A stretch of 10,415 nucleotides of DNA from Bacillota bacterium (GTDB taxonomy: Bacteria; Bacillota; Sulfobacillia; Sulfobacillales; Sulfobacillaceae), in contig JAMCTO010000043.1 in the NCBI GenBank assembly GCA_023381095.1, forward strand, positions 1 to 10,415, written 5' to 3'. Below the pieces are notes generated by a model. It was not told where the DNA came from. It did no database searches and worked only from the letters and a program-made list of their open reading frames with translations. Below, one piece after another: positions 1 through 10,415 of this stretch (position 1 is the first letter of the stretch; each line of letters starts with the position of its first letter). The position numbers and the translations under genes are program-made.

Positions 1-515
1 ATAGCTTTTTGGACCGATTGGAGTCCGTCGGCGTTTTGAACCGAGATCTCGCCATCTCTCACGGGCTGGTCGGGCCAGTGGCACGCGCTTCGGGAGTCAA
101 CCGGGATTTAAGAGCATGGCAGGAATATGCGGGTTATGATCAGATCACGTTTGGCATCCCTGTTCAGTCCGAAGGTGACGGTTATGCCAGGTTTAGGCAA
201 CTGTGCCAGGAGATTGACCAATCGTCCGGTATCATTCAGCAAATTCCCCCGCTGTTAAGTCCAGAGACTCCTGTGGCATCGGACGTCCGTATAACGGAAA
301 CGGGGACGGCCTTCGGATATGTGGAAAGCCCGTCGGGCGCAATCATCTGCGGGGTATCGGTAAATGGCCAGGGCATCATTGAGCGCTCCCGGGTGGTGAC
401 ACCCGGGCTGGCTAACTGGCATGCCTTTCCGCAGGCCGTCAGGCATTTCGCATTTCAGGACTTCCCCATCATTTTGGCCACGTTTGGGTTGAGTGTGGCC
501 GATCTCGATCGCTAG
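1..515 (+). CDS. Large subunit of hydrogenase-4/Ehr-type complex (HycE/HyfG/NuoD-like), C-terminal part, 5' end outside window
   Basis: The frame is open to the left edge, so this is the C-terminal part of a longer protein; the TTG at 9 is internal, not a start. The segment GPVARASGV followed by DLR is the conserved core of the group 4 [NiFe]-hydrogenase large subunit and complex I NuoD, and TPGLANWHA matches the later conserved TPSFANWPA-type block. In true hydrogenases the protein ends in a DPCxxCTDR-type motif whose two cysteines bind the NiFe centre. Here the aligned end is FGLSVADLDR, with Ser (codon 492-494) and Asp (codon 501-503) in place of the cysteines, while the final Asp-Arg remains. 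The protein therefore probably does not bind nickel. It would sit in the peripheral arm at the membrane surface, next to the small subunit encoded directly downstream. The family is secure; what it reacts with is unknown. Confidence 0.85.
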   Translation, partial: SFLDRLESVGVLNRDLAISHGLVGPVARASGVNRDLRAWQEYAGYDQITFGIPVQSEGDGYARFRQLCQEIDQSSGIIQQIPPLLSPETPVASDVRITETGTAFGYVESPSGAIICGVSVNGQGIIERSRVVTPGLANWHAFPQAVRHFAFQDFPIILATFGLSVADLDR

Positions 516-581
516 GTCGCTGAACTAAGGTATTCCCCTTGCCAAAAAACGACCGTGACACGGGGGACAAAGTGCCAATTC

Positions 582-588
582 AAGGAGG
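582..588 (+). promoter_or_regulatory. Strong ribosome binding site for the small subunit
   Basis: AAGGAGG lies 10 bases before the ATG at 599. The alternative in-frame TTG at 539 has only a weak AAGG-like sequence upstream. This site decides the start of the small-subunit gene in favour of 599. Confidence 0.7.
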
Positions 589-598
589 GAATTCGCCC

Positions 599-1306
599 AT
601 GCTATGGTTTCGGGAAGGACTTTACCAGTCCCTCAAAACGCTGACGCCGCAAGAGGAATTTTCCGCGTCCCCAGGATTGTCACCTGGGCGACCTGTTCCA
701 ACGGCGATGGAGGATGCGGCGCTAGGGACAATTTGCCCGACACACGCACTGCGAGAGCAAGAAGGGCTGGTGGAGATTGATTATGCGCGCTGTATTCAGT
801 GCCATTTCTGCCATCAACGGACCCCGGGAATGAACTGGGAGGCAGGCTACCATTGGGCGCAAATGAAATCCCCAGGGCTTCCTGCGCCTTTTCGCCATTC
901 GCTGCAGGTCAGGGTTATTGACGCCGGCGACTGCGGCGCATGCCTTAATGAAATCCATCAATTAGCGAGTCCTGTATACAGTTTGCACCGTTTCGGCATC
1001 TCCTTCACGCCGGCCCCCCGCGATGCGGATGTGCTCATGGTAACAGGTCCCGTAACGGTTTCTATGAAAGAGGCCCTCGAGGAAACTTTTGAGGCGGTTC
1101 CGGAGCCCAAACGAGTAATGGCGGTAGGAACCTGTGCCCTCTCGGGCGGAATTTTTTCTTCCAGCTTTGCCGTGGTCGGGCCCGTGGACCAAGTGATTCC
1201 CGTGGACATCGAGATCCCTGGATGTCCTCCGCCGCCGTTAGCTATTCTCGACGGATTTCGTTTGATCATGGGCGTTCGGTCGAAATATCCCATTAAAGAA
1301 GGGTAG
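599..1306 (+). CDS. Small Fe-S subunit of hydrogenase-4/Ehr-type complex (HycG/HyfI/NuoB-like) with N-terminal ferredoxin segment
   Basis: Electron-transfer subunit of the peripheral arm. Counting from the ATG at 599 (235 residues), the NuoB-like part contains C112-x2-C115 (DCGACLNEI), C179 (VGTCALSGGIF) and C209 (IPVDIEIPGCPP). These are the four ligands of the proximal/N2-type [4Fe-4S] cluster. VMVTGPVTVSM also matches the family. In front of it is a short ferredoxin-like stretch: Cys46 in CPTHAL, then C65-x2-C68-x2-C71 (RCIQCHFC). This is enough for one further [4Fe-4S] cluster, but the usual final Cys-Pro is Thr-Pro, so the second cluster of a normal 2[4Fe-4S] ferredoxin is absent. E. coli HycG has no such extension. 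A longer form from a TTG at 539 would add 20 unconserved residues; the AAGGAGG at 582 favours 599. It sits between the large subunit and the HyfB-like gene, with 5 bases to the latter. Confidence 0.88.
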   Translation: MLWFREGLYQSLKTLTPQEEFSASPGLSPGRPVPTAMEDAALGTICPTHALREQEGLVEIDYARCIQCHFCHQRTPGMNWEAGYHWAQMKSPGLPAPFRHSLQVRVIDAGDCGACLNEIHQLASPVYSLHRFGISFTPAPRDADVLMVTGPVTVSMKEALEETFEAVPEPKRVMAVGTCALSGGIFSSSFAVVGPVDQVIPVDIEIPGCPPPPLAILDGFRLIMGVRSKYPIKEG

Positions 1307-1311
1307 AGAAG

Positions 1312-3441
1312 ATGGTCGGATTTCTCATTTTTCTGGTCTTGTCCATCATGGCATGTGTTCTGGTGTTGGTTGTGCCAAATGGTTGGGTGACCCATGTCAG
1401 CAGTATGATGGGATCGCTCGCGGCAATCGCTCTGTTGTATAGCGCCATCGCTTCCCTCTTTTTTCACTCGTGGTTTTTGAATTTGTGGCGTCTTCGCGGA
1501 TGGGGCCAATTAGTATTGGGTGAGCCCCATTTGTCTGCGTTTTTCGTCATGGTTACGGGGTTGGTCTTTTTGCCCGTATCGTGGTATTCCCCCGAATACC
1601 TTCGGCGGCTTCAACATCACTATAATTTAAGGTACTTTGCTGTGATTTATCACGGCTTAACGATAGCCATCATTCTGACGTTTTTGGCCCAAGATGTTGT
1701 CTCCTTTCTTTTGGTATGGGAAATCATGTCGATATCAAGCTACCTGGCCGTGAACTTCGAACATCTTGACGAACGCCATACCCACGCAGGATACATAATG
1801 CTGGGAGCAAGTGAAGCGGGATTTCTGGTGATCTTGGGAGGATGGTTGCCATTAATAGCGGCGTCTCACAGCATCGATTTTTCCGCCATTCAGGCCGCAT
1901 CGTTGCACTATCTGGCGCCCCGTCTCGGATGGGTGGTGATGCTCTGCTCCTTTTTTGGTTTTGGGGTGAAAGCAGGGTTATTTCCTAGCATGAGTTGGCT
2001 CCCCCGCGCCCATCCGGCGGCGCCCGCAATTTTTTCGGCCCTATTGTCCGGCGTAATTTTAAACCTCGGGATATACGGCATTATCGAGATCAATGGGGTG
2101 CTCTGGCCCATTCATCAGCCATCGCAGGGGCTCATCATCATCGCCGTGGGAAGTGTGACGGCGCTAATCGGTATCTTGTACGCCACCACCGAAAATCACT
2201 TGAAACGCATGCTGGCTCACAGCTCGATCGAAAACATGGGTCTCATTGCGATCGCCTTGGGGGCGGCTTTCACGTTTCGCTCCGCCCATTTTCCCGACCT
2301 GGCGTGGATTGCGGGTATCGCCGCCCTGTACCAGATTTTAAATCATTCCCTCTATAAATCTTTGTTGTTTCTCGGTGCGGGCGCAATTGACTTGGGAGCC
2401 GGCGATCTAGAGATGGACCATCTTGGTGGGTTGGGGCGGCGCATGCCATGGACCGCGCTCGTGATGTTGGCCGGAGTCATGGCAATTTCGGCATTACCTC
2501 CGTTTAACGGTTTTATCAGCGAATGGCTTATCATTCAGAGCCTGCTTCGAAGTGTGGTTCTCAAGCTACCGATCTACCAAGTGATTTTTGCATTAAGTGG
2601 AGTGATTGTGGCATTGACCGCCGGATTGGCGGCGACAGCCTTTATTAAATTGTACGGGATGGTCTTTTTGGGTCAAGGTCGATCACGCGAATCCCAAAAC
2701 GCCAAAGAAGTTGGAGCGGGGCCAAAAGGAGCCATGGGAGCTCTCGCCATTCTCTGTTTGATCCTCGGGGTGACACCAACCTATATTGTTCGTGCCTTGT
2801 CGCGGCTGGCCGCAAAACTGGGAGGTGGCGGCACGTTGAGAGGATTAGTGCCCCCATTTTTTTCTCCGCAACACGTGCCGTTGGCCTTATCCCAAGCATT
2901 CAAACCCTTGGGAGCCGAAACCGGGCGTCACCTCCTTCCAGGACCGGGATTAGTCTTTTTATACCGAAGTCCAGGACCATCCTCTCATGTTGTGTTCGCC
3001 AGTTCACCGTCCTACCTAGCCATCGCTATGGTGGCCTTTCTGGGGCTGCTGTATTTGATGGTCAAAGTTCTGAAAAGGCATCGCAAAGTGGTGCACAGCG
3101 AACCCTGGCAAGGCGGTGTCAGACAGATGCCCGTTGATGCCCACTATACGGCCACCGGGTTTTCCAATCCGATAGTGGTCATATTCCGGGCCATTTTACG
3201 TCCGTACCAGCCGGTGGAACAGGAGGAGTTCTTAGCCTCGCACTTTCACACGGCGGTTCGCCGCGACGTGCGGGAGTCCTACGTGATGGATCGTTTGGTG
3301 TTTTACCCAGCCAGCAAAGCGGTGATCAGGATTTCCGGGGTGTTGGCCCGCATCCATCACGGAAAGATCAATGTATACATCGTGTATGCTTTCGTCACTC
3401 TGCTGGTGGTCGTGTCTCTTTCCCTTTGGGTGTTGCCCTGA
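1312..3441 (+). CDS. HyfB/HycC-like proton-translocating membrane subunit (NuoL/M/MrpA antiporter family)
   Basis: A 709-residue polytopic membrane protein, slightly longer than E. coli HyfB (about 670). It should form the proton (or sodium) channel of the complex. The family's ion-pathway residues are visible: Glu137 in LLVWEIMS (the TM5 glutamate), Lys220 in GFGVKAGLFPSMSWLPRAHP (the TM7 lysine block), Lys298 and His303 in LKRMLAHSSIENMG, Lys349 in NHSLYKS, and Glu404 in PPFNGFISEW. A hydrophilic loop of roughly 130 residues (about 455-590) separates the antiporter core from the C-terminal part. That part carries the Hyf/Hyc-type tail EPWQGG, YTATGFSNP and HHGKINVYIVY, and ends with a last membrane helix. 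The ATG at 1312 follows the small-subunit stop by 5 bases, with an AAGAAGGG sequence upstream, so the two genes are probably co-translated. It appears to be the last gene of the operon. Confidence 0.92.
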   Translation: MVGFLIFLVLSIMACVLVLVVPNGWVTHVSSMMGSLAAIALLYSAIASLFFHSWFLNLWRLRGWGQLVLGEPHLSAFFVMVTGLVFLPVSWYSPEYLRRLQHHYNLRYFAVIYHGLTIAIILTFLAQDVVSFLLVWEIMSISSYLAVNFEHLDERHTHAGYIMLGASEAGFLVILGGWLPLIAASHSIDFSAIQAASLHYLAPRLGWVVMLCSFFGFGVKAGLFPSMSWLPRAHPAAPAIFSALLSGVILNLGIYGIIEINGVLWPIHQPSQGLIIIAVGSVTALIGILYATTENHLKRMLAHSSIENMGLIAIALGAAFTFRSAHFPDLAWIAGIAALYQILNHSLYKSLLFLGAGAIDLGAGDLEMDHLGGLGRRMPWTALVMLAGVMAISALPPFNGFISEWLIIQSLLRSVVLKLPIYQVIFALSGVIVALTAGLAATAFIKLYGMVFLGQGRSRESQNAKEVGAGPKGAMGALAILCLILGVTPTYIVRALSRLAAKLGGGGTLRGLVPPFFSPQHVPLALSQAFKPLGAETGRHLLPGPGLVFLYRSPGPSSHVVFASSPSYLAIAMVAFLGLLYLMVKVLKRHRKVVHSEPWQGGVRQMPVDAHYTATGFSNPIVVIFRAILRPYQPVEQEEFLASHFHTAVRRDVRESYVMDRLVFYPASKAVIRISGVLARIHHGKINVYIVYAFVTLLVVVSLSLWVLP

Positions 3442-3800
3442 GAGCGAAATGCTGCGTATGATAACAATGTGGTCGGACTTCACGCGGTTTCGTTGATGCA
3501 AGTACGCCAGGCGTTTCTTCGGACATGCGCGGGAATCGAAACGATATGGGTTTCTCCGTAGCCTACGAATAAGGTCTCCTGGGCGTCTGGTAAAAGGGTC
3601 TTTCACTTAAGACACTGGTCCTGTGCCATGTGACTTTATTGCGCCAGGGGTTTGATATGCCTCCGCGTAACTATTTAGATCTACCAATTCGTTATCCCAC
3701 TGTTTCAATCCGAACGCCCCATGTCCAAGACGATAAGCCGGCAGCTTGGAATAGGGCTAATGCTTGCACTTCGGCTGTGATTTCTTCGTCGGAAACAAAC

Positions 3801-3833
3801 ACGTACGCTGACGTTAATGTGGGACGCGTACGT
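3801..3833. repeat. Short inverted repeat, 8-base perfect arms
   Basis: ACGTACGC (3801-3808) and GCGTACGT (3826-3833) are perfect reverse complements separated by 17 bases. The match does not extend in either direction. It could be a protein-binding site or a trace of a mobile element end. The loop is too long and there is no T-tract, so it is unlikely to be a terminator. Chance is a serious alternative. Confidence 0.35.
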
Positions 3834-4086
3834 CGGTCTGGGCGGGCACGGAAAAGGGCCGTGATCCAGTAACGGGGAGTTTAAGGCGAGAATTGCTAGT
3901 AATCGAGGGTATCGTAGAGAGTTAAAATAAAGTTTTCGTGGCTAGCATCGCTTCGGGCCGCGGCTCTATCGTGTGAGGACGAAGCCATGAAATTTTAACC
4001 TACGAACTCATCTCCATTAGGGTTGACTTGGGCACGATGCCGTATCGACTGGATAGCGTAACCCAATAGGGCTGCGACGTCAGACA

Positions 4087-4321
4087 GATGCGATAACCCC
4101 TCTCTGGAAATTATACGATTGTAAGCGAATACTGAAGATCTTGGTTGTCGTGTGGTGCCAATGCCGACAGAATACCTCCTCGTTTGGGGTTTTGGGTGCA
4201 AGATTCCACCATTTCGCATCATCTGGCCACAGTGCAGAACACTGGACTAGTCAAGCAGTGGATCTATTACGCTTGCCAAGATTCTGCTTTTGGGCAAGTG
4301 AAGGAAGAACTCGCACGCAAC
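4087..4321 (+). pseudogene. Decayed ArsR-type (metalloregulator/HTH) repressor remnant
   Basis: One frame (4087-4143) reads PLWKLYDCKRILKIL, resembling the ArsR opening LFKALSDPTRLRILKLL. About 17 codons later, but in a different frame (4196-4321), the sequence continues with VQDSTISHHLATVQNTGLVK, then QWIYYACQDSAFGQVKEELA. That is the ArsR recognition helix (QSTVSHHL), the LRxAGLV turn and the YY-containing wing end. The distance between the two blocks is what an intact ArsR would have, so a frameshift between them is the simplest reading. About five or six residues of the beta-wing also seem to be missing between GLVK and QWIYY. Without a continuous frame it cannot make a normal repressor. 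A sequencing error could explain the frameshift but not the wing deletion. Identification rests on motif memory only. Confidence 0.5.
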
Positions 4322-4420
4322 ACGATTAGCTATGCTGCGACTTACTACCGTAATCGGTCATCGTTGTTTCATATTGTCGCTCGTACTTGCGTAGGATCTC
4401 CGAGACAAACATCCCACTTT

Positions 4421-4427
4421 GGGAGGG
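4421..4427 (+). promoter_or_regulatory. Ribosome binding site for the deacetylase
   Basis: GGGAGGG lies 7 bases before the ATG at 4435. It places the start there rather than at an upstream in-frame TTG at 4387, and so puts the hydrophobic signal segment right at the N-terminus. Confidence 0.7.
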
Positions 4428-4434
4428 TTTATTA

Positions 4435-5139
4435 ATGGAGTCACGCTGGCTCGTAATATCACCGGTTTTGCTTTTGGTATTATCGTTGTGGTTGGTTCTT
4501 GCCGCTCCGCCTGTCCCTGCATTGAGCCGAGTCAACACCCAACAGCGGATCGTTGCCCTCACATTCGATGATGGGCCTTCCCCGCGATTTACTCCGCAAA
4601 TCTTAAGTCTGCTGACACAATATCATGCTAAAGGCACTTTCTTTGTCTTGGGTAGTGAAGCGGAAAAATATCCCGACCTCGTAAGAGCCATCGCCCACCA
4701 AGGATCGTTAGTGGCCAACCATGGATGGGGACATCTGAACCTAAGGCACGTGGGTGCCTTGAGAATGTGGCAAGATGCTGACAAAACCGTCAACTTGCTG
4801 CGTTCTTTGGGTATTTCCCCCGCTCCTTATTATCGGCCGCCTTATGGAATGACCAGTCAGGCCTTGCTGCAGTTATTCGAAGGACACGGATATGAAGTCG
4901 TCCTGTGGTCGGTAGACACCCGTGATTGGGCCACACCAGGAATTGGGTCTATCACGGAAAAAGTCCAACGTTTAATTCAACCAGGAGCCATCATCTTAAT
5001 GCACGATGGAGGCGGCAACCGACATCAGACTGTTGCCGCCCTAAAATGGCTTTTAACCAAGTACACTGCTCTCGGATGGCACTTTGTCACCTTAGCACAA
5101 CTTATCCACCCCGATGCCGTGGCTGTTAGCCATAAATAA
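4435..5139 (+). CDS. Secreted polysaccharide deacetylase (NodB domain, CE4 family)
   Basis: A 234-residue metal-dependent hydrolase that would remove N-acetyl groups from a wall or extracellular polysaccharide (peptidoglycan, chitin-like or biofilm polymer; the substrate cannot be read from sequence). Residues 6-25 form a hydrophobic signal or anchor helix, so it acts outside the membrane. The five CE4 motifs are complete: TFDDG with the catalytic base and metal Asp (D45, D46), NHGWGH with two metal histidines (H96, H100), RPPYG (R134-G138), DTRDW (D161-W165) and ILMHDGG with the catalytic His190. It is a stand-alone gene flanked by decayed DNA upstream. Its last 14 bases overlap the 3' end of the opposite-strand peptidase gene. 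Length is typical for a bare NodB domain without extra binding modules. The family is certain. Confidence 0.93.
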   Translation: MESRWLVISPVLLLVLSLWLVLAAPPVPALSRVNTQQRIVALTFDDGPSPRFTPQILSLLTQYHAKGTFFVLGSEAEKYPDLVRAIAHQGSLVANHGWGHLNLRHVGALRMWQDADKTVNLLRSLGISPAPYYRPPYGMTSQALLQLFEGHGYEVVLWSVDTRDWATPGIGSITEKVQRLIQPGAIILMHDGGGNRHQTVAALKWLLTKYTALGWHFVTLAQLIHPDAVAVSHK

Positions 5140-7003
5140 CATACTGGATTAAAAATTTCTGCAGCGACGCATAGAACCGTTCAATAGTATGGGAACCGCG
5201 CCACCCATGACCCTCTCCCGGGTACACTTCATAAAAATGCGGCACCCCATTTTTCTTCAAAATCTCCACCAAACTGTCGGCCTGGTTTCGTGGCACCACC
5301 ACATCCTCGTCACCTTGAAATACTGCCAACGCGTCCTTGATTGAGTCTGCCAGAAATATAGGGGAACGGTCATGGTATATTGCGCTGGATTCAGGCAAGG
5401 GTCCCAACATTGAGTCTAAATAACGAGATTCAAATTTATGAGTCTCTGCGGCTAAGGTAAATAAGTTAGAAACCCCGAACAAAGACACTCCAGCCTTAAA
5501 GATACCCGGATGATCGGCCAGCGCTTTCAGTACCGTATAACCGCCGGCACTGCCACCCATAATCACTAGCTGGTGCGCATTAACCCAACCTTGCCCGACA
5601 CAAAAAAGAGCGCCGCTAACGGCATCTTCAACATCCAACACTCCCCACAGTCCTTCTAACGCCTTGCGATATTGCCGTCCGTAACCGGTACTGCCACGAT
5701 AATTGACAGCCAGCACCGCATAGCCGCGACTGGTAAAAAATTGTGTCTGTCCGTTATATGCCGTCGAAATGTGTCCGGTAGGCCCACCATGAACCAATAC
5801 GACTAAAGGAGGACGCCCGTCAGAGACGTAATCGGGATTTTTCGGGGGATAATAAAGTCCATGCACCGTCATCCCTTGGCTTGTCCAAGAAATTGGCTGC
5901 GACACACACAAATAGTCCGCCGCGACTTCATTGCTAGCCGTATAGGCAACCGCCGACGATAATTTATTGGGCCCTATTACGACTACTTGAGGTGTTAGGG
6001 TATCTCCCGACACAATACCGGCAATATACCCATTTCCCGTAGGCGAGGTGGCAATCTGCGCCCAGTAAGATGCTCCTGGGTAATCCACCGCCTCATGGGT
6101 TCCTCCATCAATGGGAAGTATTTGGCATCGCGAAGACGCCGCCTGACTCCGAATCACGACCAGAGACCGACTGTCGAACATCCACCCTAGACTACGCTCG
6201 CCCTGTCCCCACGCAGGCGGGGAGTACTCTGCATCATCAAAGGTCAGTTGTTTTATGTCTCCGGTGTTTCGGTCTTTGACCATCACCTGACTCCAATTGT
6301 CAAGTTCGTGGGCAAATGCCAAGTATCGGCCATCTGGAGAATATGCCGGTTGAAACACGAGGCCCGGTTCTGCGATGACGCGAGAAACCACACCGGGACT
6401 GATAAACAGATCCCTTTCGATGACTTCAATGGTCAGCAATTCTGTGTCGTCCCATGGCATATTGGGATGATTCCATGCCACACAAGTCAATTCGTGGCCA
6501 TCCGGGGAAAATGTCGGTTGCATAAAAAAGTCGTGATCGGAGAGAAATTTTTGTGGCCAGTATTGGCCTAAAGTGTCGACGACGGCAATACCATCATCCT
6601 GACCGTCCGAATAGACATAAGCCACCCAGCGTTCGTCGGGGGAGAGCGCGGGAGAAGCTATGGCCCCGCTTCCCGCTGGCGTAATTGGTCTAGGTACGCC
6701 TGAACTTAAAGGTTTCCGCCATAATTGCCCCTCGCTGACAAAATACACACTGTCTAATCCTACGACAAAATCGCCCCCGCCATAACCTACCCGGGCACGC
6801 ACCGAATTCGCCGCGGTTAAGTCCTGTGGAGCCCCGCCTTGGAGTGGCGCCATCACCAAAACGCCCTGACTCGACCGATTCTCTAGCCATACCAAGTAAC
6901 GGCCATCACGGGAAATTTGAACATCACTCAACCGTTTTTGACCAGACAGATGTTTAGGTGTCAGGGGACTATCCCAGACACCGAACGGTTTCTTTACTGC
7001 CAC
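5126..7003 (-). CDS. S9-family serine peptidase (prolyl oligopeptidase/acylaminoacyl-peptidase type)
   Basis: A 625-residue peptidase that would cleave short peptides, probably in the cytoplasm since no signal peptide is seen. The N-terminal two thirds is a beta-propeller with PD40-like repeats (LSPDERWVAYV, FSPDGHELTCVAW, YSPDGRYLAFAHE) and the S9C-like HPNMPWDDTEL. The C-terminal third is an alpha/beta hydrolase domain with HGGPTGH (oxyanion region), the nucleophile Ser485 in GGSAGGY, Asp567 in GDEDVVVP and His599 in GEGHGWR, so the catalytic triad is complete. I start it at the GTG whose first base is 7003, because AAGGAGG lies 7 bases upstream. A longer reading from an ATG at 7048 would overlap the preceding dehydrogenase gene and adds residues with no family look. 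It is the last gene of the leftward run, 22 bases after the dehydrogenase stop. Confidence 0.92.
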   Translation of the reverse strand: MAVKKPFGVWDSPLTPKHLSGQKRLSDVQISRDGRYLVWLENRSSQGVLVMAPLQGGAPQDLTAANSVRARVGYGGGDFVVGLDSVYFVSEGQLWRKPLSSGVPRPITPAGSGAIASPALSPDERWVAYVYSDGQDDGIAVVDTLGQYWPQKFLSDHDFFMQPTFSPDGHELTCVAWNHPNMPWDDTELLTIEVIERDLFISPGVVSRVIAEPGLVFQPAYSPDGRYLAFAHELDNWSQVMVKDRNTGDIKQLTFDDAEYSPPAWGQGERSLGWMFDSRSLVVIRSQAASSRCQILPIDGGTHEAVDYPGASYWAQIATSPTGNGYIAGIVSGDTLTPQVVVIGPNKLSSAVAYTASNEVAADYLCVSQPISWTSQGMTVHGLYYPPKNPDYVSDGRPPLVVLVHGGPTGHISTAYNGQTQFFTSRGYAVLAVNYRGSTGYGRQYRKALEGLWGVLDVEDAVSGALFCVGQGWVNAHQLVIMGGSAGGYTVLKALADHPGIFKAGVSLFGVSNLFTLAAETHKFESRYLDSMLGPLPESSAIYHDRSPIFLADSIKDALAVFQGDEDVVVPRNQADSLVEILKKNGVPHFYEVYPGEGHGWRGSHTIERFYASLQKFLIQYVIYG

Positions 7004-7010
7004 CCCAATG

Positions 7011-7017
7011 CCTCCTT
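7011..7017 (-). promoter_or_regulatory. Ribosome binding site for the S9 peptidase
   Basis: On the minus strand this reads AAGGAGG and lies 7 bases before GTG at 7003-7001. It is the reason for preferring the shorter peptidase over the ATG at 7048. Confidence 0.7.
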
Positions 7018-7025
7018 GCGTCTGT

Positions 7026-7874
7026 TCAAGAATAGCTGTAAAAACCACGGCCGGACTTTCGGCCTAATAACCCCGCGTCGACCATTTTGCGCAATAACGG
7101 AGCGGGTCGATATTTAGAATCGCCAAATCCTTGGTACAGCACCTCCATAATATAAAGGCACGTGTCTAAACCAATGAAGTCCGCTAACGTCAAAGGCCCC
7201 ATAGGATGATTCATGCCTAGCCGCATCACTGTATCAATGCCTTCTTTAGTGCCCACTCCCTCTTGCAATGCAAAAATGGCCTCATTTATCATCGGCATCA
7301 AAATGCGATTGGCAATGAACCCTGGATAATCTTCCGATTCCACTGGAGTTTTCCCCATCGCACGGGCTATCGACAAGACTTCAGCGACCGTTTCGGGACT
7401 CGTTAGCGCTCCCCGAATCACCTCGACCAATGTCATCACCGGTACTGGATTCATGAAGTGCATTCCAATAAACCGTTCGGGACGGTGGGTCGCACTGGCC
7501 AGTCGAGTAACCGCAATGGACGAGGTATTCGAAGCAAAAATTGTTTCGGCTCCAAACCATTGATCTGCATCGCGAAATAGCTCACGCTTGACAGATTCTT
7601 GTTCCACCACGGCCTCAATCACCAAATCCACCTGAGACACTCCTCGTAAGGAGTCGATTACAATGAGCTGGTCCAACGCATGATTTTTTTCCTCTGCCGT
7701 TATTTTCCCCTTGTCCATCAGACGGGACAGTCTTGTTTCAATCCCCTGTTGGCCACGCTCTCGCTGACTGACGAGGGCATCAGTCAAGTACACTGTAAAC
7801 CCACTGACAATGGCGGTTTGAGCAATTCCCGCCCCCATTTGCCCTGCGCCTATCACCAAAATCTTTTCCGCCAT
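7026..7874 (-). CDS. hbd: 3-hydroxybutyryl-CoA dehydrogenase
   Basis: A 282-residue NAD(P)-dependent enzyme interconverting acetoacetyl-CoA and 3-hydroxybutyryl-CoA. The length is exactly that of the stand-alone bacterial family. The N-terminal Rossmann fold shows [15 protein letters not shown] (residues 5-19). The catalytic residues are visible: Ser118 in ASNTSSIAV, His139 in [11 protein letters not shown] and Asn189 in [11 protein letters not shown]. The C-terminal dimerisation domain contains [15 protein letters not shown] and ends [14 protein letters not shown]. The start is the ATG at 7874, which removes 19 unconserved residues of a longer open frame; an AGGGGGT sequence overlapping the thiolase stop codon is the likely ribosome site. 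Only 8 bases separate it from the thiolase that makes its substrate, so the two are probably translationally coupled. It is distinct from the large multifunctional FadB type because no hydratase domain is present. Confidence 0.94.
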
Positions 7875-7882
7875 ATGACCCC

Positions 7883-9061
7883 CTAACCGACACGAACCAC
7901 GGTTGCTTCTCCTTGGCCCCCACCGCTGCAAATCGTCGCCACGCCGATCCCGCCGCCACGCTTTAGCAGTTCTAAGATTAATGTCAGCAAAATTCTTCCT
8001 CCTGAGGCACCAATGGGATGTCCTAAGGCTACCGCTCCCCCATTGACGTTGACAATTTCCGGATCAAAATCCGCCAACTTCATACTGGTTAACGTAACCG
8101 CTGCAAACGCCTCGTTAATTTCCACTAAGTTCACATCACGGGTTGTCAATTGCGCTTTTTTCAGAGCAGCTTGCGCCGCATAGGCCGGTACCGTGTGCAA
8201 ATATTTTGGTTCCGCAGAAACTTGACCTGAACTTAAAATCGTGGCTAAAATGGGCAGCCCCAGTTCCAGAGCCCTTTCTCGATCCATCAGCACCAATGCC
8301 GATGCGCCGTCCGTCAATCCGGGCGCGTTGCCCGCAGTCACGGTGCCATCCATCACAAATACTGGCTTCAAAGATTGTAGTTTTTGCAGCGAGGTGTCCC
8401 GCCTTGGCCCCTGGTCCTCCTTGACTTCAGTCGTTTGTCCCCTTTTTCCCGAAACCGTAACGGGTACAATTTCCTCGGCAAACCTCCCTCTATCGATGGC
8501 CGCCAACGCCCGTTCATGGCTGCGATATGCCCAGGCATCTTGTTCTTCCCGAGTGATCCCAAACTCCTTGGCCACTTCACTACCGTATACTCCCATGTGA
8601 CACTGGCCAAAACTACACCAAAGCCCATCATGCACCACCGAATCCACCATCGGAGCATCGCCCATGCGAAGACCCCAACGCGCCCCTTGCACCAAGTAGG
8701 GGGCACGACTCATGGATTCCATGCCGCCAGCGACAGCAGACTTGATCTCTCCGAGACGAATAGCCATATCAGCTAAATTTACCGCCCTAAGACTCGAAGC
8801 ACACACTTTATTAATCGTGTCCGATGGCACCCGCTCAGGAAGTCCTGCCCTTATCGAAGCCTGCCGCGAGGGAATTTGTCCCTCTCCTGCCTGTACCACT
8901 TGTCCCATAAACACATAATCAATATCTTCGCCAATCCCAGCGCGATCCAAGGCGCCGCGAATTGCTACGGCACCCAAATCTGAGGCCGCAATATCCTTCA
9001 ATGATCCTCCAAACGGAACAAATGGTGTTCGCGCCAGGCCAACAACTACGGTTTGTGGCAT
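7883..9061 (-). CDS. Acetyl-CoA acetyltransferase (thiolase)
   Basis: A 392-residue thiolase, full length for the family. It would condense two acetyl-CoA to acetoacetyl-CoA or run the last step of beta-oxidation. Active-site elements: nucleophile Cys87 in [11 protein letters not shown], the NEAFA block at 316-320, His348 in [11 protein letters not shown] and Cys378 in [20 protein letters not shown] (112-122) and [10 protein letters not shown] (249-258) are further thiolase signatures. The ATG at 9061 is preceded by GGAGGG and lies 15 bases after the murA stop. With hbd next in line, the pair would supply 3-hydroxybutyryl-CoA for butyrate-type, PHB-type or fatty acid metabolism. No crotonase, PHB synthase or acyl-CoA dehydrogenase gene is in the window to decide between these. 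Chain-length preference cannot be read here, so atoB versus fadA naming is left open. Confidence 0.94.
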
Positions 9062-9076
9062 AATACCCTCCGCCTT

Positions 9077-10336
9077 TCACAACTCACGATAAATGGCCGC
9101 TCCCAATTGAGCCAACTTGCGCTCAATGCCATGATAGCCGCGGTCAATATATTCCACTTTGTCAACGATGGTGGTGCCAAGCGCTCCTAATGCCGCCAGC
9201 ACCAGTGCCGCCCCCCCACGAATATCCTGCGCTTCTACGGGAGCGCCTGTCAACACTTCGACTCCGCGGACAATGGCGGTTTCTCGCTCCACTTTGATAT
9301 TGGCTCCTAACCGCACCAAGTCATGAGTGTACCCAAACCGGTTCTCAAAAACTGTTTCTTCGACTACTGCCACACCATCGGCGAAGCTTAACAGTGCAAC
9401 CATTTGCGGATGCAAATCGGTTGGAAACCCCGGATACGGCAAAGTCTCGATGTCAACAGACATGGGGCGCTGAGACATCGTTAAACGGACCCAATCCATA
9501 TCTTCTTCGATTTCGGCTCCCGTTTGCTCCAGTTTTAACAATACCGTACGCAAGTGTTCCGGGATGACGTTGGTAACCGTCACCACCCCACCGGTGATGG
9601 CACCAGCCATCAAGTATGTGCCGGCCTCAAGACGATCAGGAATAATTTCGTGGTGCGTGCCATGTAGCGACGGCACTCCTTCGATGCGAATTAAGTTGGT
9701 GCCAGCGCCACGCACCCTCCCTCCCATTGCGTTGAGAAAATTCGCCATATCTACCACTTCCGGTTCCATGGCGGCATTTTCTAGTGTGGTCACCCCCTGC
9801 GCCAAACTGCCCGCAATCATTAGGTTGATGGTGGTGCCGAAGGAAGCCCGTTCGATATAGATCCGCGCCCCCTTAAGGGGGCCGTCTACCTGTCCTAATA
9901 TCGACCCGTGTTCCAACCCCATGGTAGCTCCCAAGGCCTCGAACCCCCGAACATGAAAATTGACCGGGCGCGACCCAATCTGGCAACCACCAGGAAAAGC
10001 GACATCGGCTTTGCCCAATCGTGTCAGCAGTAGCCCAATGACATATGTGGAACCTCGCAGTTTGCTGGCTAATTCATATGGTGCTATATGACCACTCAAT
10101 TGCGATGCGTCAATCCGCAATTGAGCGTTGTGATGCCAAGTGACCGTGGCACCTAATTGACGAAGAATTTCGCAGAGATCCAAAATATCGGTGTAACGCG
10201 GCACATTTTCTAAAATACTGACGCCTTCGGACGCCAGCGCTGCCGCGGTAATAATTGGCAATGCACTGTTTTTCGAACCCTCGATGCATACTTCACCGGC
10301 CAACGAATGCTGGCCCTCGATAACCAAACGTGCCAC
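9077..10336 (-). CDS. murA: UDP-N-acetylglucosamine 1-carboxyvinyltransferase (MurA)
   Basis: A 419-residue cytoplasmic enzyme that transfers enolpyruvate from PEP to UDP-GlcNAc, the first committed step of peptidoglycan synthesis and the fosfomycin target. All key residues known from E. coli MurA can be placed: Lys22-Asn23 (GSKNSALPI), Arg94 (LRGSTYVIG), the PEP-binding Cys118 in FPGGCQIGSRPVNFH with Arg123, Asp307 in GFPTDLHPQ, Arg333 in FENRFGYTH, Arg373 in DIRGGAALVLA and Arg399 in YIDRGYHG. Cys rather than Asp at 118 predicts a fosfomycin-sensitive enzyme. The start is GTG, with GGAGGGA 6 bases upstream. It follows guaB by 15 bases. The common MRAS motif is LRGS here, a mild divergence. 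Many Gram-positives carry two murA paralogues; whether another copy exists elsewhere is unknown. Confidence 0.95.
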   Translation of the reverse strand: MARLVIEGQHSLAGEVCIEGSKNSALPIITAAALASEGVSILENVPRYTDILDLCEILRQLGATVTWHHNAQLRIDASQLSGHIAPYELASKLRGSTYVIGLLLTRLGKADVAFPGGCQIGSRPVNFHVRGFEALGATMGLEHGSILGQVDGPLKGARIYIERASFGTTINLMIAGSLAQGVTTLENAAMEPEVVDMANFLNAMGGRVRGAGTNLIRIEGVPSLHGTHHEIIPDRLEAGTYLMAGAITGGVVTVTNVIPEHLRTVLLKLEQTGAEIEEDMDWVRLTMSQRPMSVDIETLPYPGFPTDLHPQMVALLSFADGVAVVEETVFENRFGYTHDLVRLGANIKVERETAIVRGVEVLTGAPVEAQDIRGGAALVLAALGALGTTIVDKVEYIDRGYHGIERKLAQLGAAIYREL

Positions 10337-10351
10337 AATGAGTCCCTCCGC

Positions 10352-10415
10352 CTATAAACTATAGTTCGGCGATTCTTTGGTAATCTGCACATCGTGGGGG
10401 TGGTGACGGTTACCA
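10352..10415 (-). CDS. guaB: IMP dehydrogenase, C-terminal end (rest outside window)
   Basis: Reading leftward from the window edge, the frame gives GNRHHPHDVQITKESPNYSL and then a TAG stop (10354-10352). This closely matches the C-terminal tail of bacterial IMP dehydrogenase (ESHPHDVQITKEAPNY), the NAD-dependent step from IMP to XMP in guanine nucleotide synthesis. Only 20 codons are visible, but the HPHDVQITKE tail is distinctive. It lies 15 bases before the murA start on the same strand, so it is the most upstream gene seen of the leftward run. Confidence 0.85.
   Translation of the reverse strand, partial: GNRHHPHDVQITKESPNYSL

Follow-up and report, generated by a model that had tools for sequence, protein, structure and literature searches.

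A Cys-less Ehr-type relative of group 4 hydrogenases in a Bacillota bacterium, with a conserved pocket Glu and a probable role in redox-driven proton pumping

The 10,415-nucleotide stretch of Bacillota DNA analyzed here (the window) opens with the end of a group 4 hydrogenase-like large subunit that very probably belongs to a NiFe-less Ehr complex. The Cys ligands of nickel are gone, particular residues recur in their place, and relatives of the protein keep a Glu that donates protons in hydrogenases. The best overall explanation we can offer, with a probability of about one-half, is a six-subunit nickel-free Ehr complex that would take electrons from a ferredoxin-type donor, pass them to a small acceptor, and pump protons.

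The window comprises the first 10,415 bases of the 12,426-base contig C43, starting at contig base 1, in an assembly (G000) of 1.7 Mb that is 64% complete. The open reading frame (ORF) at positions 3 to 515 (+) is open from the first bases of the contig to a TAG stop at 513 to 515 and encodes the C-terminal 170 amino acids of an Ehr/HyfG-like large subunit of the group that we call class A. This fragment matched PF00346 (E = 5.5e-33) and was 96% identical to an orthologue (L040, 8951 to 10513). The N terminus is missing because the window starts at contig base 1, where the assembly cuts the gene. A search of the 64%-complete assembly for the 5' part and the upstream genes found none, a result that shows little since the search had no positive control. 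The nearest named records carrying the gene were two Bacillota metagenome-assembled genomes, TL2-1.bin36 (96% identity) and Sulfobacillus benefaciens AMDSBA1 (72%).

Two further genes of the operon follow on the same strand. A HycG/HyfI-like small subunit of 235 amino acids, identified by profile matches and orthologues, runs from an ATG at 599 to position 1306. The ORF lister started this gene at a TTG at 539; an AAGGAGG at 582 to 588 (+), which reads as the likely ribosome-binding site, and an MLWFR start in the orthologues suggest that the ATG is the true start. The third gene (1312 to 3441, +), recognized from its ORF, a profile match, and residue columns, encodes a HyfB-like antiporter-type membrane subunit of 709 amino acids with conserved Glu and Lys pump residues. 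Past these genes, the window looks unrelated to the complex, with genes for a polysaccharide deacetylase, an S9 peptidase, a 3-hydroxyacyl-CoA dehydrogenase (7026 to 7931, between the S9 peptidase and thiolase genes), a thiolase, and an EPSP-synthase family protein. About 475 bases in the 3' half of the dehydrogenase gene (7105 to 7580) had no counterpart in L040, and the adjoining 7581 to 8080 were just 72 to 76% identical. Compared with L040 in 250-base steps, positions 1 to 3500, the Ehr part, were 93 to 99% identical and positions 3501 to 10415 were 72 to 94% identical. Across the three Ehr genes dS was 0.08 to 0.11, and in thiolase, the sole other gene measured, it was 0.43. This contrast with the rest of the window perhaps reflects a recent exchange of the Ehr operon.

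Alignment by MAFFT with E. coli HycE, HyfG, and NuoCD placed the C-terminal motif FGLSVADLDR (483 to 512, +) without gaps on LDPCYSCTDR of HycE. Cys531 is replaced by Ser (492 to 494) and Cys534 by Asp (501 to 503), and Asp536 and Arg537 are retained, exactly as a sequence-only reading of this DNA had proposed. That reading also pointed to the N-terminal CxxC pair as a place to look. The HycE sequence RVCGIC is RIDGLT in the closest full-length relative (96% identical), and the pair was absent from all 13 full-length class A orthologues aligned, which have D, N, or S at the first position and T, S, or Q at the second; it is presumably absent from the window's own protein as well. The ligand motifs of [NiFe] group 4 hydrogenases, RxCGxC and [DE]xCxxC, are thus lacking, the C-terminal one in the window and the N-terminal one in its orthologues. 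Among the best-scoring 120 of 1,631 homologues, 117 had none of the four ligand Cys residues and 3 had one; lower-scoring homologues may be true hydrogenases. Over 141 class A rows (140 distinct, the window fragment included), position 531 was Ser in 137, Ala in 3, and Glu in 1, and position 534, the last nickel ligand, was Glu in 104 and Asp in 37. The replacement residues are more than chance, because 140/141 rows have Ser or Ala at 531 and 141/141 have Asp or Glu at 534. A second large subunit with full cysteines in the same operon would have counted against a NiFe-less complex, and the operons that we read held no four-Cys large subunit.

Other hydrogenase residues of the pocket are kept in part. 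Of the 141 class A rows, 136 had Glu and 4 had Ala in the column of HycE Glu193, the remaining row having a gap, and all 24 NuoD rows had Gly. Passages of two structural papers describe this Glu, on the β1-β2 loop, as the proton donor of hydrogenase, either adjacent to complex I His38 or in its position (PMC9474812, PMC11228991). The columns of His248 (140/140), His284 (139/140), Arg395 (141/141), and Glu437 (140/141) were kept in class A. The canopy Asp (HycE D529) was Gly in 116/141 class A rows, and the canopy Arg (HycE R478) stayed Arg in just 59. The complex I residues Tyr87 and His38 (Thermus numbering), whose columns lie outside the window and were read on orthologues, were found in 0/140 and 1/140 class A rows, respectively, and each in 24/24 NuoD rows. 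As judged from these columns, the class A pocket is neither a NiFe site nor a quinone site of the complex I type and appears to keep a proton route. The sequence-only reading had suggested that with NiFe chemistry lost and the scaffold retained, a different electron donor or acceptor docks there. That idea is plausible, but the pocket was not emptied of function: class A retains the proton-transfer Glu and a good part of the His/Arg/Glu path.

We examined the operon in orthologous loci, where the gene order was HyfC-, HyfE-, HyfF-, HyfG-, HyfI-, and HyfB-like, with one gene uncalled by the ORF filter in some loci. The window shows three of these genes, the first cut; the full set matches the six-gene composition of Ehr, named ehrABCDLS in a passage of PMC6688271. 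Antiporter-type membrane subunits are encoded in the same operon, HyfB-like in the window and HyfC-, HyfE-, and HyfF-like in the orthologous loci. In the window's small subunit, CPTHAL plus CIQCHFC form an N-terminal half-ferredoxin stub that we interpret as a single [4Fe-4S] site, and the motifs GDCGAC, GTCA, and PGCPP supply the four Cys of a proximal cluster site. The CGAC spacing of this subunit differs from the tandem CC of E. coli NuoB that marks complex I. Both the full stub (CP, CxxCxxC) and the complete set of proximal Cys were present in 17/18 distinct class A small subunits examined, the exception (L144) having no clear last motif; the L044 locus ends just after the large subunit, before the small-subunit gene.

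In the membrane arm, the HyfF columns of NuoM E144, K234, and E407 were kept in 15/15 rows, and the HyfB columns of HycC 135 (Glu), 208 (Lys), and 391 (Glu) were kept in 16/16 rows with letters. The HyfB gene of G016 was split into two reading frames (L042, 11113 to 13424), by a frameshift or an assembly error. The middle Lys was lost from both subunits (HycC K239 column, N in 16/16; NuoM K265 column, S, T, or G in 15/15). Among the HycD residues, Glu138, Glu189, Glu203, and Glu206 were each kept in 15/15 rows, E130 was T and E201 was H in 15/15, and E199 was kept in 1/15. HyfE has no NuoK Glu pair, as in E. coli HyfE. These residues suggest a complex that is capable of proton movement but altered in its details, and redox-driven pumping by the complex is probable.

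To find a conserved partner gene, we compared the flanks of 12 loci from the window's order and of L045 (13 loci in all; ORFs of at least 120 amino acids) with those of 6 loci from the phylum of G355 (ORFs of at least 110 amino acids), L142 being the L045 locus again and several flanks being cut by contig or fetched-stretch ends. Besides the operon itself, no flanking family was common to over 3 of the 18 loci, of which 12 belong to the window's order and 6 to the G355 phylum. The flank of L030 had a FlpD/Fer4/flavin protein and a CCG/Fer4 protein, which are HdrA-MvhD- and HdrBC-like by domains, and that of L147 had a prismane/CO-dehydrogenase family gene. We treat such single redox neighbors (L030, L147, L041, and L045) as leads and not as evidence.

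The distribution of HypD, taken as a marker of nickel maturation, was in the window's order consistent with a nickel-free enzyme. HypD was found in 50/154 genomes of the class. Among the 19 carriers tested, it was present in 1/13 in the window's order (G005) and in 4/6 in the G355 phylum, which counts against a nickel-free enzyme, although HypD there may serve other hydrogenases. It was absent from G000 (64% complete) and from 11 of the 12 other carriers of the order, including G002, which is 93% complete and holds the 96% identical orthologue. The Ehr-type assignment made in the sequence-only reading therefore stands on the Cys-less motifs, the group 4 placement, the HyfB-, HyfF-, HyfC-, and HyfE-like partners, and the lack of HypD in 12/13 carriers of the order. 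Menaquinone genes were less telling. MenD scored over the cutoff in 13/19 carriers and PF02621 (MqnA/D) in 4 others, 17/19 together, with neither over the cutoff in G000 and G441. We rejected this co-occurrence as proof of a quinone substrate, as it discriminates little: MenD was over the cutoff in 7 and PF02621 in 4 of 14 control genomes. Passages of the cited papers report menaquinone pathways in all Sulfobacillus genomes of Justice 2014 (PMC4378227) and Ehr, perhaps of another clade, in genomes without recognized quinone synthesis (PMC6349859).

We sorted the large subunits of 61 related genomes and fetched 40 further stretches, a subset of the matches. Class A was found in 13 genomes, the window's own included. 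Class B proteins were 34 to 41% identical to the fragment and Cys-less (T, S, then mostly S and G), and class C proteins kept three of the four ligands, with RxCGAD and both C-terminal Cys. Two NuoD types were also found among the related genomes, and other Bacillota added four-Cys relatives ending FELCY(S/A)CxDR. A third Cys-less family, F (RISGDE ... FNLSYAGNDL type; states S, E, S, G), came from 12 other Bacillota genomes, and its β1-β2 Glu was kept in 12/12 (L100 to L105, L107, L108, L110, and L112 to L114). In a phylum-wide search, 47/299 genomes matched at 1e-70. Of the 30 loci returned, 17 encoded four-Cys hydrogenases, 1 encoded a three-Cys protein, and 12 encoded family F proteins; class A was not among these 30, and the other 17 matches include the window's own fragment. 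Plasmid records held relatives of <60% identity only (248/248).

A tree of 95 rows, unrooted, with the ligand columns removed and without named Mbh, Mbs, or Ehr references, grouped class A with class B (99/98). The FELC hydrogenases, class C, and family F joined this pair (100/99), and HycE, the DPCxxC types, and NuoD lay on the opposite side. Class A thus groups with group 4 hydrogenases and not with complex I, the comparison for which the sequence-only reading had proposed a tree. The Cys-less label needs three changes on this tree. Holding A and B with family F gave a p-AU of 0.199, so that a single Cys loss in those groups was not rejected. One shared Cys loss for class A/B and complex I was rejected by holding A and B with NuoD (p-AU 0.0099), a test in which the groups were named after the tree had been seen and the tree was unrooted.

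Some further observations concern classes B and C. The class C large subunits of L071, L073, L074, L077, L079, L082, and L084 read RxCGAD or RxCAAD ... ELCYSC, with the second Cys replaced by Asp in 7/7, and two of their seven host genomes, G002 and G016, had no HypD, so that the class C proteins of at least these two may also be something other than hydrogenases. Next to the class C operon of G002 (L148, 2570 to 6289), an unassigned ORF lies between genes for a DAO-family FAD oxidoreductase and a Fer4-CCG protein, an arrangement that may be GlpABC-like. The G027 genome carries both class A and class B, and in G037 (L034) the class B and class A operons adjoin (658 to 7684 and 8038 to 15644). 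In the class B small subunit of L034 (5133 to 5693), one Cys of the proximal cluster is missing (SxxC), a loss seen in none of the 11 other class B small subunits that we read. We considered class B as an MBS-like enzyme with a three-Cys cluster on the strength of this gene and dropped the idea, as 11/12 keep CxxC.

In the mechanism that we favor, a soluble low-potential carrier, most likely ferredoxin, would reduce the single [4Fe-4S] cluster of the half-ferredoxin stub, and the electrons would pass to the four-Cys proximal [4Fe-4S] cluster. This cluster would reduce a small proton-accepting molecule in the former NiFe pocket, with the proton coming from the old hydrogenase Glu of the β1-β2 loop, acting together with the Ser and Asp/Glu found in place of the last two nickel ligands. 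For the acceptor, menaquinone is our leading candidate, held tentatively and at less than even odds. By analogy with the complex I superfamily, turnover would drive protons through HyfC, HyfF, and HyfB. The reverse run, from quinol to ferredoxin, could occur in an acidophile with a large proton gradient. We infer the pumping, the ferredoxin donor, the menaquinone acceptor, and the direction, and the donor is a guess; a diffusible donor fits because the operon is self-contained, with no widely shared neighbor. The reading with ferredoxin, two clusters, the pocket Glu, and HyfF and HyfB uses all the kept parts. The menaquinone version is weakened because the quinone-holding Tyr87 and His38 of complex I are missing in class A, and the mechanism as a whole is weakened because the canopy Asp and Arg are mostly lost, the middle Lys is gone, and several HycD E-channel residues are changed.

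We weighed these proposals against explanations in which the large subunit has little or no catalytic role. The loss of the Cys residues and the incomplete gene in its own assembly might suggest a decaying hydrogenase gene. However, the truncation falls at contig base 1, relatives hold six-gene operons, and the same replacement residues recur across distant relatives. In the comparison with L040, dN/dS was 0.14 for the large-subunit fragment (on just 19 differences), 0.29 for the small subunit (from 539), and 0.22 for HyfB, and full-length large-subunit pairs of relatives gave 0.13 and 0.12. The 0.12 to 0.14 for the large subunit indicates purifying selection and not decay, in line with the view of the sequence-only reading that an undisrupted frame is not simple decay, and a decaying gene is almost certainly the wrong explanation. 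Electrons might alternatively act only as a switch in a complex that serves pH homeostasis, mainly by proton or cation antiport, and whose pocket turns over little. A passage in PMC6688271 lists Ehr among possible pH-homeostasis systems of the acidophile Methylacidiphilum, and HyfB and HyfF keep their pump residues, but a complex without turnover would hardly be expected to retain both Fe-S sites and the pocket Glu. The few named homologues also include Paraburkholderia and Comamonadaceae, which to our knowledge are not extreme acidophiles. We regard the switch as quite improbable.

Two other alternatives keep catalysis and change the partner. A fixed dehydrogenase such as formate dehydrogenase (FDH) could pass formate electrons to the pump in an FDH-Ehr complex. 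The half-ferredoxin stub has one cluster site, against two in HycF of formate hydrogenlyase, and in the flanks of the 18 class A loci compared, no family recurred at more than 3 loci. In L041, a molybdopterin oxidoreductase ORF that is cut by the end of the fetched stretch does lie on the opposite strand, ~4.9 kb upstream of the operon, and passages of PMC6349859 suggest an FDH link for other Ehr complexes; we consider this arrangement improbable for class A. The pocket might instead reduce or oxidize a sulfur compound, e.g., polysulfide, as archaeal MBS does. Such a role would suit a sulfur-oxidizing acidophile, and sulfur metabolism in Sulfobacillus is described in passages of PMC4378227. 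According to passages of PMC7684303, the Pyrococcus sulfane sulfur reductase MBS is likewise a hydrogenase-derived complex that has lost its NiFe ligands and center and has no complex I quinone residues. However, two of the four Cys persist in MBS, whose proximal cluster is held by only three Cys because of a shortened motif, whereas class A has none of the four in 117/120 (the best-scoring of 1,631) and a four-Cys proximal site, with CxxC and two further Cys, in the window and in 17/18. Class A also keeps the β1-β2 Glu, whose equivalent in MbsL is reported there as absent (PMC7684303), with the caveat that a passage in PMC9474812 grants MbsL one acidic residue on that loop. In the flanks, no family, whether for sulfur or anything else, recurred at more than 3 of the 18 loci, and overall the sulfur role seems distinctly improbable. 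The nickel-free Ehr pump with a ferredoxin-type donor is the explanation that we retain.

A Cys-less Ehr is already known in Sulfobacillus. According to passages of Justice 2014 (PMC4378227), Sulfobacillus group 4 large subunits, which may be class A, class B, or both, lack both NiFe motifs, have six syntenic genes alongside, and are Ehr-like with unknown function. Ehr is also reported, in passages of the respective papers, in Methylacidiphilum (PMC6688271), comammox Nitrospira (PMC10284858), and CPR bacteria (PMC7304191), and a further account is in PMC6349859; the passages searched name no substrate. Class A shares with published Ehr the Cys-less group 4-like large subunit, the antiporter-type subunits, the six genes, and the unknown function, and, judged by these features, there is possibly no difference at the family level. 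The founding Ehr papers are reportedly Coppi 2005 and Marreiros 2013. Class A differs from HycE (7z0s_E) and HyfG in that its NiFe Cys are replaced, its chain does not extend beyond the Arg, its canopy Asp is mostly lost, and its small subunit has a half-ferredoxin stub, with no separate HycF-like gene called in the operon. Relative to NuoD/Nqo4, it has no Tyr87, His38 in only 1/140, no tandem CC, and a place on the other side of the tree. New with respect to the passages of the cited papers are the conservation of individual residues, the pair of sister families, and the shared-loss test.

Ehr has been reported in many bacteria without an assigned substrate and sits between hydrogenases and complex I. 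If this clade lost its nickel site separately from complex I, as the tree suggests, it would be a parallel solution and not a direct "missing link." A bolder version, which we consider rather unlikely as it stands, is that class A and its sister class B are a hydrogenase turned into a non-hydrogen redox pump independently of complex I, with the Glu kept and the class A Ser and Asp/Glu forming a new pocket, e.g., for a ferredoxin:menaquinone reaction in which the Glu would replace the His/Tyr pair. The conserved Glu/Ser/Asp set (Glu177, Ser514, and Asp517 in L040) provides the candidate key residues of this family.
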